From positions 2,480,001 to 2,544,000 of the forward strand of contig NZ_JAKIJS010000001.1 in NCBI RefSeq assembly GCF_021608225.1: 64,000 nt of DNA. The letters run 5' to 3'. Numbering within the stretch: position 1 is the stretch's first letter; the number at the start of each line of letters is the position of its first letter. Under the pieces are notes generated by a model. The model saw only the letters and a program-made list of their open reading frames with translations, did no database searches and was not told where the DNA came from. Source of the stretch: Pseudalkalibacillus berkeleyi (lineage in GTDB: Bacteria > Bacillota > Bacilli > Bacillales > Fictibacillaceae). This document shows positions 8,347 through 38,932 of this stretch, one piece after another. Both the position numbers and the translations under genes were made by a program.

Positions 8347-10835
<2,489 letters not shown>

Positions 10836-20110: not shown

Positions 20111-21847
20111 TTAAGCTGATTTACGGACTTTGATCAAATGTAGTCCGTTATCAATCCACTTTTTCAATTTCGGCTGGTGTTTCATTTGTTCCAAGTCACT
20201 CATCAATTTATGCTTCGTCGTTGGCAATAAAGGTTTTTGTGTTAGAATCTCAACGATTTCCAGGCGTAGTAGCCAATCCTCCGGAAAGCTTTCTAATTCT
20301 TGCACGACATGATTAATCGTTGCGATGATTTCCTGAGGTGTCTGCTCTTCCTCTCGTATTTTACGAATTTTTCCGTATAACTGCTCTAATGGTGTAAGTT
20401 CTCTTTCCTCAACATGAGCAACCTCTTCGTTCACATCTCCACCAAAGAAATGCTCACTATCAGCAGCGCCAGCAAATACTGACGTAATCTCTGTTCCAAC
20501 AGCCATATCGAACACGCCCTCCCCGCTTTCGAATAAAACGGATCCATTATGAGAGACTTGCGCGTTCTTAATGCCTATCAGTATGACTTTATCATTTTTT
20601 CGAACAACATGATCGAGGATGCCTTCCACCATCACACCTGATTGAAATTCTAACGTGAATGCTTCATCCACTTGGATGCCTTGCTCAGAAAACTCAGCTT
20701 CCGTCCAATCTTCAAGTGCTTTTTCAGAGGTAACTACGTCTCCAATTGGCGAGCTGAATCCTTCTGTGTGAACATTTTTACCATGCCCATCAATGACCTC
20801 ATCATCAACTGACAATGCTGTCGGACCTGAAGTTTTCATAAAGATTGCTTCCCCATCATCGTCCTTGATTAACTCTGATACTGTCCCTGTTACTTGGAGT
20901 CCTGAACTGAAAACAGATGTCGAAGTGTTTGCAGATCGAACTGCTTTCTCCAAGCTCTCCGTTCCACCGACCTTGAATGCCATCGTTTCTGAAAATTGTT
21001 CAACAGCATCTAATAGTTGATCAAAGTTTTTACAAACAAATAATTGAGGCTGTTGCGTCGTAATATCAAACCCAGTATTGATGACGGTGTCCAACTCAAA
21101 CGGAAGCTTTGTAACCTCTTCTGAAAGGCTCGACACACTTTCCCCAATTGAAGATAGTAGACCTGCTCCGTATAAAACAGGTTTCTCGACACTTCCGATC
21201 ATGCCGAATTCCACTGTCCACCAGTATAACCTAGAGATTTGTTCCGCCTCTGATATTTCAGTAACCGCTTCTTGTTTCTCTTTAAAATTTGCACGCGCCG
21301 CTTCGATATCTTGCTCTGGAACAGATCCATCTTCAAGAAGCGCAGATAGCGTACGGATTGCATCAAAAAGTTCGTGCTCTTCTTTAGTAGCAAGTGCCTT
21401 TGAGCCAATTTCTCCAAATTTCTTGACGAATTCTGCGTATGTCGAATCACATAAAATCGGCGCATGACCAGCAGCTTCATGAATGATATCAGGTGCAGGT
21501 GTGTAATCAATGTTCTCCAGCTTTCGGATATCTGTCGCAATCGGTAAGTAACCATGCGCTTGGAAATCGAAAAACATGACTGCAGGGATGAAACCATCTA
21601 TTGTAACGGCTCCCCATCCAAAAGGCTTGAGACTTTCATTCATGTCGTCCACTTTCGGTATGGAATCGATTTTGATTCCTGATGAAACGAGACCATCCGT
21701 ATAAGCTTCATGAGCTACATCTTTTAAGAAGTTATGGTTTTGTCTCATCACGTAACGCCAAACAGAATGGTCGATCGGTGAATACTGTTCATGATGCTGC
21801 TCTACAACATATTTCCTTAAATGTGCCGGTAATGGTCTTTGTTTCAT
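20111..21847 (-). CDS. phhA: Phenylalanine 4-monooxygenase with long C-terminal extension
   Basis: This enzyme hydroxylates phenylalanine to tyrosine using a pterin cofactor, O2 and non-haem iron. The catalytic domain fills about residues 20-290: IIHEAAGHAPIL holds iron ligands His123 and His128, and WWTVEFGMIG holds Glu213. The remaining 290 residues are not part of the compact bacterial PhhA; they look beta-rich (VTGTVSELIKDDDGEA, VMVEGILDHVVRKNDKV) with a helical tail. I recall similarly long hydroxylases in the Bacillus cereus group. The ATG at 21847 follows AAGGAGAA. It is preceded by a repeat element and a T-box whose specifier reads as tyrosine, so it is probably induced by tyrosine shortage. 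Confidence 0.9.
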   Translation of the reverse strand: MKQRPLPAHLRKYVVEQHHEQYSPIDHSVWRYVMRQNHNFLKDVAHEAYTDGLVSSGIKIDSIPKVDDMNESLKPFGWGAVTIDGFIPAVMFFDFQAHGYLPIATDIRKLENIDYTPAPDIIHEAAGHAPILCDSTYAEFVKKFGEIGSKALATKEEHELFDAIRTLSALLEDGSVPEQDIEAARANFKEKQEAVTEISEAEQISRLYWWTVEFGMIGSVEKPVLYGAGLLSSIGESVSSLSEEVTKLPFELDTVINTGFDITTQQPQLFVCKNFDQLLDAVEQFSETMAFKVGGTESLEKAVRSANTSTSVFSSGLQVTGTVSELIKDDDGEAIFMKTSGPTALSVDDEVIDGHGKNVHTEGFSSPIGDVVTSEKALEDWTEAEFSEQGIQVDEAFTLEFQSGVMVEGILDHVVRKNDKVILIGIKNAQVSHNGSVLFESGEGVFDMAVGTEITSVFAGAADSEHFFGGDVNEEVAHVEERELTPLEQLYGKIRKIREEEQTPQEIIATINHVVQELESFPEDWLLRLEIVEILTQKPLLPTTKHKLMSDLEQMKHQPKLKKWIDNGLHLIKVRKSA

Positions 21848-21888
21848 GATTCATTCTCCTTTTTATATAGTAAAATCTTAAAAGATAG

Positions 21889-22133
21889 GCTTTGTTAGCT
21901 TTCATTGTTGATGTTTAAAGAAATAGAAGCATAAGGCGGCGACTCCTGCGGGAAAAGCAACAGACTGAAGACCCCGCAGAGCGAGGGAACTAAGGAACTT
22001 CAACTAATTACCACCACGTCCTGTGGTGAACGTTGAAGTCACCACATCCTGTGGAAGTGAGGAGACTGAAGCGTTGCCCGCGGAAAGCGTCCACCTGAAG
22101 CTGTTCAAAATCAACAACAGTCTTTAACAGAGC
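21889..22133. repeat. MITE-like element between T-box and phhA
   Basis: This is a 245-bp non-coding element with imperfect inverted ends of about 29 bp. The left end reads GCTTTGTTAGC then TTGTTGATGTTTA. The right end, read on the minus strand, is GCTCTGTTAAAG then TTGTTGATTTTGA. The interior has further pairing, including CTTTCCGCGGG and the palindromic CACCACGTCCTGTGGTG shared with the element at 350-530. It lies in the phhA leader transcript. Confidence 0.75.
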
Positions 22134-22142
22134 TAATAAAAT

Positions 22143-22350
22143 AAAAAACCTTCCATCCAACTAGGGACGAAAAGTTTCCGCGGTACCACCCTGATTGATG
22201 AACAATATTTTGTTCATCCACTCAAATGAGAAAGTCTATAAAATACTGCAATGTAATTCGCAATGACGACTGCCTGAACTTTCACCTACCGTCCAGTCTC
22301 TATTTGCTGCTCATCGTAGTGCTACTGCTTTTGCAAAGACTTTTATATTT
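22143..22350 (-). ncRNA. T-box riboswitch, tyrosine specifier
   Basis: The minus strand carries the T-box signature AGGGTGGTACCGCGG (22178-22192). The terminator CTTTTCGTCC / GGATGGAAGG (22149-22174) followed by TTTTTT shares its left arm with the antiterminator. Stem I closes with AAAGTCT / AGACTTT (22337-22343 with 22231-22237) and TTGCAA / TTGCAG. The specifier loop has TAC followed by A, at 22253-22255. TGGT would pair with a tRNA ending ACCA. Uncharged tRNA-Tyr should allow read-through into phhA. Confidence 0.9.
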
Positions 22351-22364
22351 ATTTTTTTATTTAT

Positions 22365-22390
22365 ACTTAAACGCTTAGACGCTTTTAAGT
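22365..22390. promoter_or_regulatory. Inverted repeat at the T-box transcript start
   Basis: ACTTAAACGC and, after a short centre, GCTTTTAAGT form a near-palindrome just downstream of the predicted start near 22393. It could be an operator or the 5' end of the leader fold; no regulator is assigned. Confidence 0.4.
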
Positions 22391-22399
22391 GTTAAAGTT

Positions 22400-22428
22400 A
22401 ATATACACACTAATTTTCAAAACGTCAA
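22400..22428 (-). promoter_or_regulatory. Promoter of the T-box/phhA transcript
   Basis: On the minus strand TTGACG, 17 bases, then TATATT. The predicted start is near 22393, about 50 bases before Stem I. Confidence 0.75.
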
Positions 22429-22445
22429 CCCATTTATTAAAAAAT

Positions 22446-22497
22446 AATAAAAGGGCTATATCTCAAATACTGTTCAGAACACACTTGAGATATAGCC
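22446..22497 (-). terminator. catE terminator
   Basis: GGCTATATCTCAA pairs with TTGAGATATAGCC and on the minus strand is followed by CTTTTATTATTTT. Confidence 0.88.
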
Positions 22498-22509
22498 TTC
22501 TTTATTCTT

Positions 22510-23370
22510 TTAACTGCCATTATGAGTCGAAAGTTGAATGCTGTTTCCTGACGGATCCTTTGTCAACACTCGATCATTCGAAATAACCACATCATAACCT
22601 AATTCATTCAACTGACTAATTACGTGATCCCTTTCTTGTTCGGTGGCATATGTAATGGAATATGATTTCATTCTCATACTGCTTTCGTCTGGTGGGGCAA
22701 TACCTTTTCCATTCCATGTGTTCAAACCAATGTGGTGGTGATATCCTCCAGTAGAAACGAACAAAGCTTGTTGTCTTATCGGAATCGTAATGTCAAACCC
22801 TAGCCCATTAACGTAAAAGTCCTTGGCTGCTTCTAAGTCGTGTACATGTAAATGGATGTGTCCCAAAACTGTTTCTGAAGGCAGGCCATCCCATTGACCA
22901 TCTGCCTCTTCTAGTACCCCTTCTATGTCAATTGGATCACTTGCAAGTGGCAATTCTCCATTCTGCCAAGTCCATTGTTCAGATGGTAAATCTCGATACA
23001 CTTCTATGCCATGACCATCTGGGTCAGCCAAATAGAGCGCTTCACTAAACAAATGATCTGAACCACCTTGAATAGGATGGTTGACAGTTTTCACATGATT
23101 AATAAAGTTCCCTAGATCTTTTCGAGTTGGTAATAAGATAGCAAAATGGAACAATCCTGTGCGGTTACGTTGTTTAGGTTGAGCGGTATCCACTTCCTCC
23201 AAGGTTACAAGCGGATGTTTTCCATCTGCCGTTAATACGACGATATTTCCGTTCTTCTCCAATTCTTTAAAGCCTAAAATATTTTTATAAAATGAGAGTG
23301 AATGCTTTAAATTAGAAACAATTAGATGAATTCGATCTACATATGGATTCGACAATCGATGATAGGTCAT
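22510..23370 (-). CDS. catE: Catechol-2,3-dioxygenase-like VOC protein
   Basis: The 286-residue product has two tandem vicinal-oxygen-chelate modules (about 8-125 and 165-285). Ligand-type residues include His in HLIVSNL and HIHLHVHDL, the His cluster GGYHHHIGLNTW, and Glu in HGIEVYRDLP. The overall pattern matches B. subtilis CatE, which opens catechol rings by meta cleavage. I chose the ATG at 23370, six bases after GGGGAGG; an ATG at 23373 is also possible. It is monocistronic with its own terminator. In B. subtilis catDE is controlled by quinone/diamide-sensing YodB and CatR; an inverted repeat over the promoter here suggests a similar repressor. Confidence 0.87.
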   Translation of the reverse strand: MTYHRLSNPYVDRIHLIVSNLKHSLSFYKNILGFKELEKNGNIVVLTADGKHPLVTLEEVDTAQPKQRNRTGLFHFAILLPTRKDLGNFINHVKTVNHPIQGGSDHLFSEALYLADPDGHGIEVYRDLPSEQWTWQNGELPLASDPIDIEGVLEEADGQWDGLPSETVLGHIHLHVHDLEAAKDFYVNGLGFDITIPIRQQALFVSTGGYHHHIGLNTWNGKGIAPPDESSMRMKSYSITYATEQERDHVISQLNELGYDVVISNDRVLTKDPSGNSIQLSTHNGS

Positions 23371-38861: not shown

Positions 38862-38891
38862 TCTCCGGTCCCTCTTAATATTCCGAATCCT

Positions 38892-38911
38892 TTAGTTCGC
38901 TAATTAACTAA
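38892..38911. promoter_or_regulatory. Inverted repeat in the his operon leader
   Basis: TTAGTT and AACTAA flank eight bases at about +15 to +34 of the predicted transcript. It resembles the TAGTTAACTA-type sites of TrpR-fold regulators, the family of B. subtilis YerC/HisR. The regulator assignment is inference. Confidence 0.45.
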
Positions 38912-38932
38912 CAAGATAAAGACTTAATTTGT

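Follow-up and report, generated by a model that had tools for sequence, protein, structure and literature searches.

Probable double control of the phenylalanine hydroxylase gene phhA of Pseudalkalibacillus berkeleyi by a tyrosine T-box and a predicted four-octad operator

Short T-boxes are known as glyQS-like, and Stem II and the IIA/B element are absent from some true T-boxes. A T-box before the phenylalanine-4-hydroxylase gene has been reported for all studied members of the Bacillus cereus group (Wels 2008, PMC2494555) and, with a tyrosine (UAC) specifier, for Exiguobacterium chiriqhucha (2017, PMC5399880). At the DNA level, the closest described system is that of HisR (YerC), a TrpR-family repressor with the predicted consensus cacTTTAnnnnnnTAAAgtg, which was tested in vitro for Ruminococcus gnavus and responds to histidine in vitro (PMC9413887). 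That study describes TrpR half-sites as 8 bp apart, reports the B. cereus group to be without HisR, and proposes a further TrpR-family protein, HisR2, for tyrosine genes at tdcP-tdcA-tyrT, with the HisR2 gene linked to its targets.

We analyzed a T-box predicted in front of phhA within a window of 64,000 nucleotides (the whole stretch of P. berkeleyi DNA under study; Table 1). Because of the 2008 and 2017 reports (PMC2494555 and, with UAC, PMC5399880), the link between T-box and phhA, whose novelty the original prediction had implied, is not new; the present case confirms a known and sensible connection in another genus. Leader type and target enzyme are the same as in the B. cereus group and Exiguobacterium, and UAC is stated for the latter. 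The accessible text of these reports mentions no DNA operator, unlike the situation that we describe below for the window phhA.

Table 1. Features at the phhA locus and the his-operon operator used for comparison (window positions)
Feature	Position	Strand	Evidence or remarks
phhA, aromatic amino acid hydroxylase, 578 aa	20111..21847	-	NF010657 749.9 bits, cutoff 346; PF00351
Inserted repeat with imperfect terminal inverted repeats	21905..22117	.	Arms 21905-21918 and 22104-22117; ~213 bp
Bacillaceae-1 (RF01690) match inside the inserted repeat	21988-22055	+	Rfam scan
Intrinsic terminator	22144..22179	-	Overlaps antiterminator; 15 pairs, then T run
T-box leader, short form	22160..22345	-	RF00230 81.6 bits, E 5e-18
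Conserved T-box sequence AGGGTGGTACCGCGG	22178..22192	-	Bulge TGGT at 22188-22185
Stem III hairpin	22197..22218	-	Two 9-nt arms, 100% complementary; compensatory changes
Specifier UAC (Tyr) in loop GAAUUACA	22253..22255	-	Loop 22259-22252; L024 fold and alignment
32-bp four-octad operator (predicted) CTTTAACA CTTAAAAG CGTCTAAG CGTTTAAG	22366..22397	-	2 bases after the -10 hexamer
phhA promoter TTGACG-17-TATATT	22400..22428	-	10/12 consensus bases; chance matches common
Four-octad his-operon operator (comparison) CTTTATCT TGTTAGTT AATTAGCG AACTAAAG	38890..38921	-	Upstream of hisZ

Scanning the window with Rfam at default settings reported no T-box, because the score of the phhA leader (81.6 bits) is under the RF00230 gathering score of 93 bits. 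A sensitive scan of positions 21800 to 22550 did recover the predicted T-box, with an alignment that spans the full 219-position model, though at this score the curated cutoff is not reached. The Rfam alignment lacks approximately 40 model positions in the region that separates Stem I from Stem III, and Stem II and IIA/B are not present; the leader is therefore a short form, and its shortfall in score fits the absence of the middle part. The P. berkeleyi genome has 20 RF00230 matches, 18 of them over the cutoff. At 186 nt, the phhA T-box falls between those of glyQ (180 nt) and an NhaC-type transporter gene (192 nt), and the remaining 17 measure 210 to 278 nt. It thus resembles the glyQS-like T-boxes in that its Stem III follows Stem I with little intervening sequence, and differs from the glyQ T-box of this genome in its specifier (TAC versus GGC).

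The phhA T-box is real. The leader has a Stem I with a specifier loop, a UGGN bulge within the antiterminator, and a competing intrinsic terminator that is more stable than its shuffles (z = -3.39; 0 of 200 equally stable). Stem I of the window, folded alone, was as stable as shuffled sequences (z = -0.06), and its support comes from the Rfam match and from covariation, not from its own fold energy. When 13 phhA T-boxes from 12 loci (L030 contributes two) were aligned, RNAalifold recovered three elements: Stem III, the antiterminator, and, from Stem I, the apical helix. Both sides had changed with pairing kept in at least one sequence at 13 of the 23 consensus pairs, and the apical helix of Stem I covaries. 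Most antiterminator pairs are invariant and hence provide little covariation evidence. RNAalifold missed the base of Stem I, a poorly aligned region; a complete Stem I including its base was seen in the single fold of the relative L024. The original observation was confirmed, the minus strand of 22428-22143 carrying the features that it had named, but "complete" needs qualifying for a 186-nt short form.

The sequence GAATTACA at 22259-22252 places TAC at 22255-22253, followed by A. In the fold of L024, the eight-nucleotide loop faces AAGCAGUA, and the loop reads GAA-U-UAC-A. A T-box was found upstream of phhA in 37 of the 63 Bacillota loci scored, and in 36 of these 37, every T-box carries GAA(T/A)TAC or GAATAC; in the exception, L043, the first T-box copy is cut by the locus end. 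Three T-boxes of the P. berkeleyi genome have TAC, namely, those before tyrS (L002), the NhaC-type transporter gene (L017), and phhA (the genes following all 20 T-boxes were named from their translations, and the NhaC type was confirmed as PF03553). tRNA-Tyr has the discriminator A and the anticodon GUA, and the TGGT bulge fits a tRNA with discriminator A. According to the TBDB rule, the specifier occupies bases 2 to 4 from the loop end, which gives UAC for the phhA loop. NhaC-type transporters were likewise placed under tyrosine by Wels 2008 (PMC2494555). The predicted TAC specifier followed by A is thus borne out by its position in the loop, by the alignment, and by the conservation of TAC in relatives.

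Between the terminator and phhA lies an inserted repeat that the original prediction did not mention. By eye, a repeat of this kind occupies the same place in L023 but in the opposite orientation, which suggests that this gap is a hot spot for insertions. Another repeat is present in L022, and L024 and L025 have no insert, their T-box core ending ~100 bases before phhA (also by eye). Further RF01690 matches occur in the window at 374-441 and 10731-10795.

Two readings would change how the leader is understood. Alternative specifier frames are documented (TBDB), and another frame of GAATTACA would give AAT (Asn), TTA (Leu), or ACA (Thr). We find this barely credible, since the T-box of tyrS in the same genome shares the identical GAATTAC, GAAATAC in L029, L042, and L046 keeps TAC and loses AAT and TTA, and TACC in L029 and L060 breaks ACA. 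Alternatively, the inserted repeat may have uncoupled the T-box from phhA, the gene now being expressed from another start; the repeat does separate terminator and gene by ~213 bp, and L024 and L025 have no such insert. This is very improbable, given that no further minus-strand terminator and no further promoter-like site was found in positions 21800 to 22550, that nothing in the promoter, operator, T-box, or terminator is disrupted, and that L023 and L022 also carry inserts beside intact T-boxes (by eye). Because no further minus-strand terminator was found, read-through into phhA is the simplest reading. Tyrosine T-box control of phhA, the core of the original prediction, is well supported by the sequence, through the place of the specifier, covariation, the TAC of relatives, and the lack of a second terminator in this interval.

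That account is nonetheless incomplete, because another conserved control element lies in the promoter region and there is a route to tyrosine besides phhA. The genome also has a cluster read as aroC-hisC-tyrA (names from translations) behind a T-box with a TTC (Phe) specifier, which makes phhA a second tyrosine route. A pterin dehydratase gene is located elsewhere in the genome (C1:656572).

The second element, absent from the original prediction, is a 32-bp site of four octads, located downstream of the -10 hexamer and ahead of Stem I. It was first noticed in that phhA relatives without a T-box retain it. The promoter match is weak on its own (one promoter-like site found versus a shuffle mean of 1.8). 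We built a 32-bp matrix from 12 nhaC and 12 aroA sites only and ran it on the 700 bp upstream of phhA. The window site scored 40.7 bits, and the highest score among five shuffles per phhA locus was 13.1 bits. The training sites had been found by their core, so conservation of the core is built in; this does not apply to the outer octads or to the result at phhA. Searches with the 16-base core at up to three mismatches gave 2 matches in the window (1.2 expected) and no enrichment in the P. berkeleyi genome (58 matches versus 82 for the reversed control), in which the phhA site alone has as few as one core mismatch. In seven loci (L054, L055, L058, L059, L062, L064, and L067), the site fills, by eye, the gap from TTGACT to TAAGAT, and a second copy follows the T-box terminator. 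Since it sits between -35 and -10 there, ahead of the transcript start, it acts as DNA in these loci; an operator that works as an RNA hairpin only is ruled out by the same placement. No description of the four-octad operator was found in the open-licence text consulted, whereas the T-box–phhA link is known.

The operator was detected at 25 of the 63 Bacillota phhA loci (19.2 to 43.1 bits), and the remaining 38 scored ≤10.2 bits; L029 and L042 represent a single place that enters these counts twice. All 48 non-Bacillota phhA loci scored ≤4.1 bits, some of them with little upstream DNA (38 bases in L100). Operator, T-box, and both were present at 11, 9, and 8 of the 13 loci sampled from the order; at 14, 15, and 11 of the 32 loci from named Bacillota; and at 0, 13, and 0 of the 18 loci from family f23.

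Beyond phhA, a search of 100 relatives for the 16-base core with at most one mismatch returned 30 loci (L145-L174). Over the full site, 18 of them scored ≥33 bits, 3 scored 19 to 27, and 9 had no site over 14; some of the weaker ones sit inside other genes. The 18 strong sites precede aroA (11 sites), PF03553-type transporter genes (4 sites), a nitroreductase-family gene (L161), an amino acid permease gene (L170), and a frame without a Pfam match (L150). Further loci comprise transporters (L175, L178, L182-L186, and L189), aroA (L176), and a nitroreductase (L177). Pfam was run on 10 target proteins, including L177 and L017 of P. berkeleyi, and the other aroA and transporter labels come from matching translations. 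The targets seen are thus aroA, NhaC-type transporters, phhA, nitroreductases, and one permease; histidine genes, which would mark a HisR regulon, were not among them. Outside family f23, 6 of 22 aroA loci reached ≥19 bits, in a set of which 11 had been chosen for lacking core hits, and the one of the two P. berkeleyi aroA copies that was scored gave 0.2 bits. Pterin dehydratase was rejected as an operator target (best upstream score of 1.7 bits at 12 loci; gene present in 12 of 15 genomes).

The phhA operator shares its frame with a site upstream of window ORFs read as hisZ-hisG-hisD. Among the his upstream regions of 30 genomes, 16 contain the frame CTTTA-N22-TAAAG (≤1 mismatch; shuffle mean, 0.9; maximum, 4), and every other spacing between 10 and 35 was seen in at most 5. 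In the aroA set, spacing 22 was found in 9 of 30 regions (shuffle mean, 1.1; maximum, 5), 4 of the 9 not being octad sites. The frame alone is uninformative in the phhA set, since spacing 22 occurs in 19 of 63 loci and spacings 14 and 29 occur in 19 and 21. Like HisR/TrpR-type sites, the phhA site has octad spacing and CTTTA/TAAAG arms, with TTAAG replacing TAAAG at its end. The 32-bp frame, the octad repeats, and the position just after the promoter are common to the his and phhA operators; the target genes differ, as do the inner octads, CTTAAAAG and CGTTTAAG for phhA versus TATTAGCA and TATTAGCG for the his operators. For HisR, the published consensus takes the form of a 20-bp palindrome, and the main text of the study does not mention aroA (PMC9413887). 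Single HisR palindromes are at background level in the window (6 found versus 5.0 expected).

This resemblance makes a TrpR-family repressor, perhaps YerC/HisR, the leading candidate for the binder. The P. berkeleyi genome has one PF01371 match, the yerC gene at 18941-19195 of contig C2; phhA is on C1, unlike the linkage of the HisR2 gene to its targets. PF01371 matches over the cutoff are present in 96 of 100 relatives (second matches are weak, the best being 34.1 bits in G039), which leaves co-occurrence with little power except in family f23. In that family, 18 of 19 genomes lack a PF01371 match over the cutoff, none of the 18 phhA loci has the operator, and 13 of them carry two or three T-boxes. 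Tandem T-boxes before phhA were seen in L237 (three), L226-L236, L030, L043, and L045, none with an octad operator. A T-box precedes aroA in 4 of the 8 f23 loci scored (L269, L271, L272, and L273) versus 0 of 22 others, and the CTTTA-N22-TAAAG frame was not seen in either of two f23 his regions. As f23 is one clade, its co-absence counts as one event. One f23 genome, G106, does have a PF01371 match, yet none of its scored loci carries an operator. Outside f23, G007 has no PF01371 hit and yet has an aroA site of 13.0 bits, the same as in G005 with PF01371, which either speaks against a strict link or reflects an assembly gap.

The phhA gene is likely controlled twice, by repression at the operator and then by tRNA-Tyr-dependent antitermination. 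As the comparisons suggest, a repressor on the four octads at the transcription start would lower initiation at high levels of an aromatic amino acid, tyrosine being the probable one; it would most likely belong to the TrpR family, of which YerC/HisR, the only member found in this genome, is the candidate. Transcripts that start would enter the short T-box, where the UAC specifier is predicted, with strong support, to pair with the tRNA-Tyr anticodon. The 3' end of uncharged tRNA-Tyr would pair with the UGGU bulge and stabilize the antiterminator, so that polymerase would continue across 296 nt, the inserted repeat among them, and reach phhA. If the tRNA is charged, transcription would stop at ~22144. 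DNA-level and tRNA-level sensing would thus be stacked on one promoter.

Another reading is that the T-box acts alone and the octads are merely conserved leader RNA or promoter with no regulator bound. The window site does lie at and after the expected start, and hence also in the transcript, and T-box leaders without octads exist (L030, L043, L045, and 13 f23 loci). We regard this as unlikely, because the octads are kept before phhA genes that have no T-box (L026, L032, L033, L044, L048, and L056), precede aroA and transporter genes as well, and lie between -35 and -10 in seven loci. Much closer to even is the reading that the operator is real and another aromatic regulator reads it, which we place slightly short of an even chance. 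It would account for the differing inner octads, the response of HisR to histidine in vitro (PMC9413887), and the two genomes, G106 and G007, that break the co-occurrence with PF01371. A TrpR-family binder is favored in turn by the shared 32-bp frame and outer arms, by half-sites 8 bp apart as for TrpR (PMC9413887), and by the joint absence in f23, a single clade, of operator (18 of 18 phhA loci) and PF01371 matches over the cutoff (18 of 19 genomes); we put the chance that the binder is a TrpR-family protein at about one half. More tentatively, the double control of phhA may belong to a Bacillales aromatic (tyrosine) regulon, in which YerC/HisR would read two 32-bp dialects, the TTAGC type at histidine genes and the TTAAAAGCGTTTAA type at aroA, tyrosine transporter, phhA, and nitroreductase genes, with T-boxes stacked behind and with T-boxes, even tandem ones, substituted in the lineage without the repressor. 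Such a regulon is possible rather than probable. YerC would thereby gain a further role, and in the family without it one level of sensing would seem to have been exchanged for the other. The operator would also explain how aroA, whose product is the entry enzyme of aromatic synthesis, is controlled in those Bacillales in which a T-box was not found before that gene.

Several operator-bearing leaders merit separate mention. The nitroreductase-family genes L177:185-1345 and L161:96-1271 (both on the minus strand) have an octad operator and, by eye, a TAC T-box; a role of their products in recycling tyrosine derivatives, in the manner of iodotyrosine deiodinase, is a guess. In L170, the AA_permease gene is preceded by an octad operator and then, by eye, by a T-box whose specifier is TTC (Phe), so the operator may serve phenylalanine genes too. 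A weak octad run (16.6 bits) in the NhaC leader of P. berkeleyi (L017) overlaps the start of the other short tyrosine T-box. As for phhA itself, the C-terminal half of the hydroxylase (~290 residues; window 20111-21000, minus strand) is outside the Pfam Biopterin_H match, and full-length relatives are present in Bacteroidota and others.
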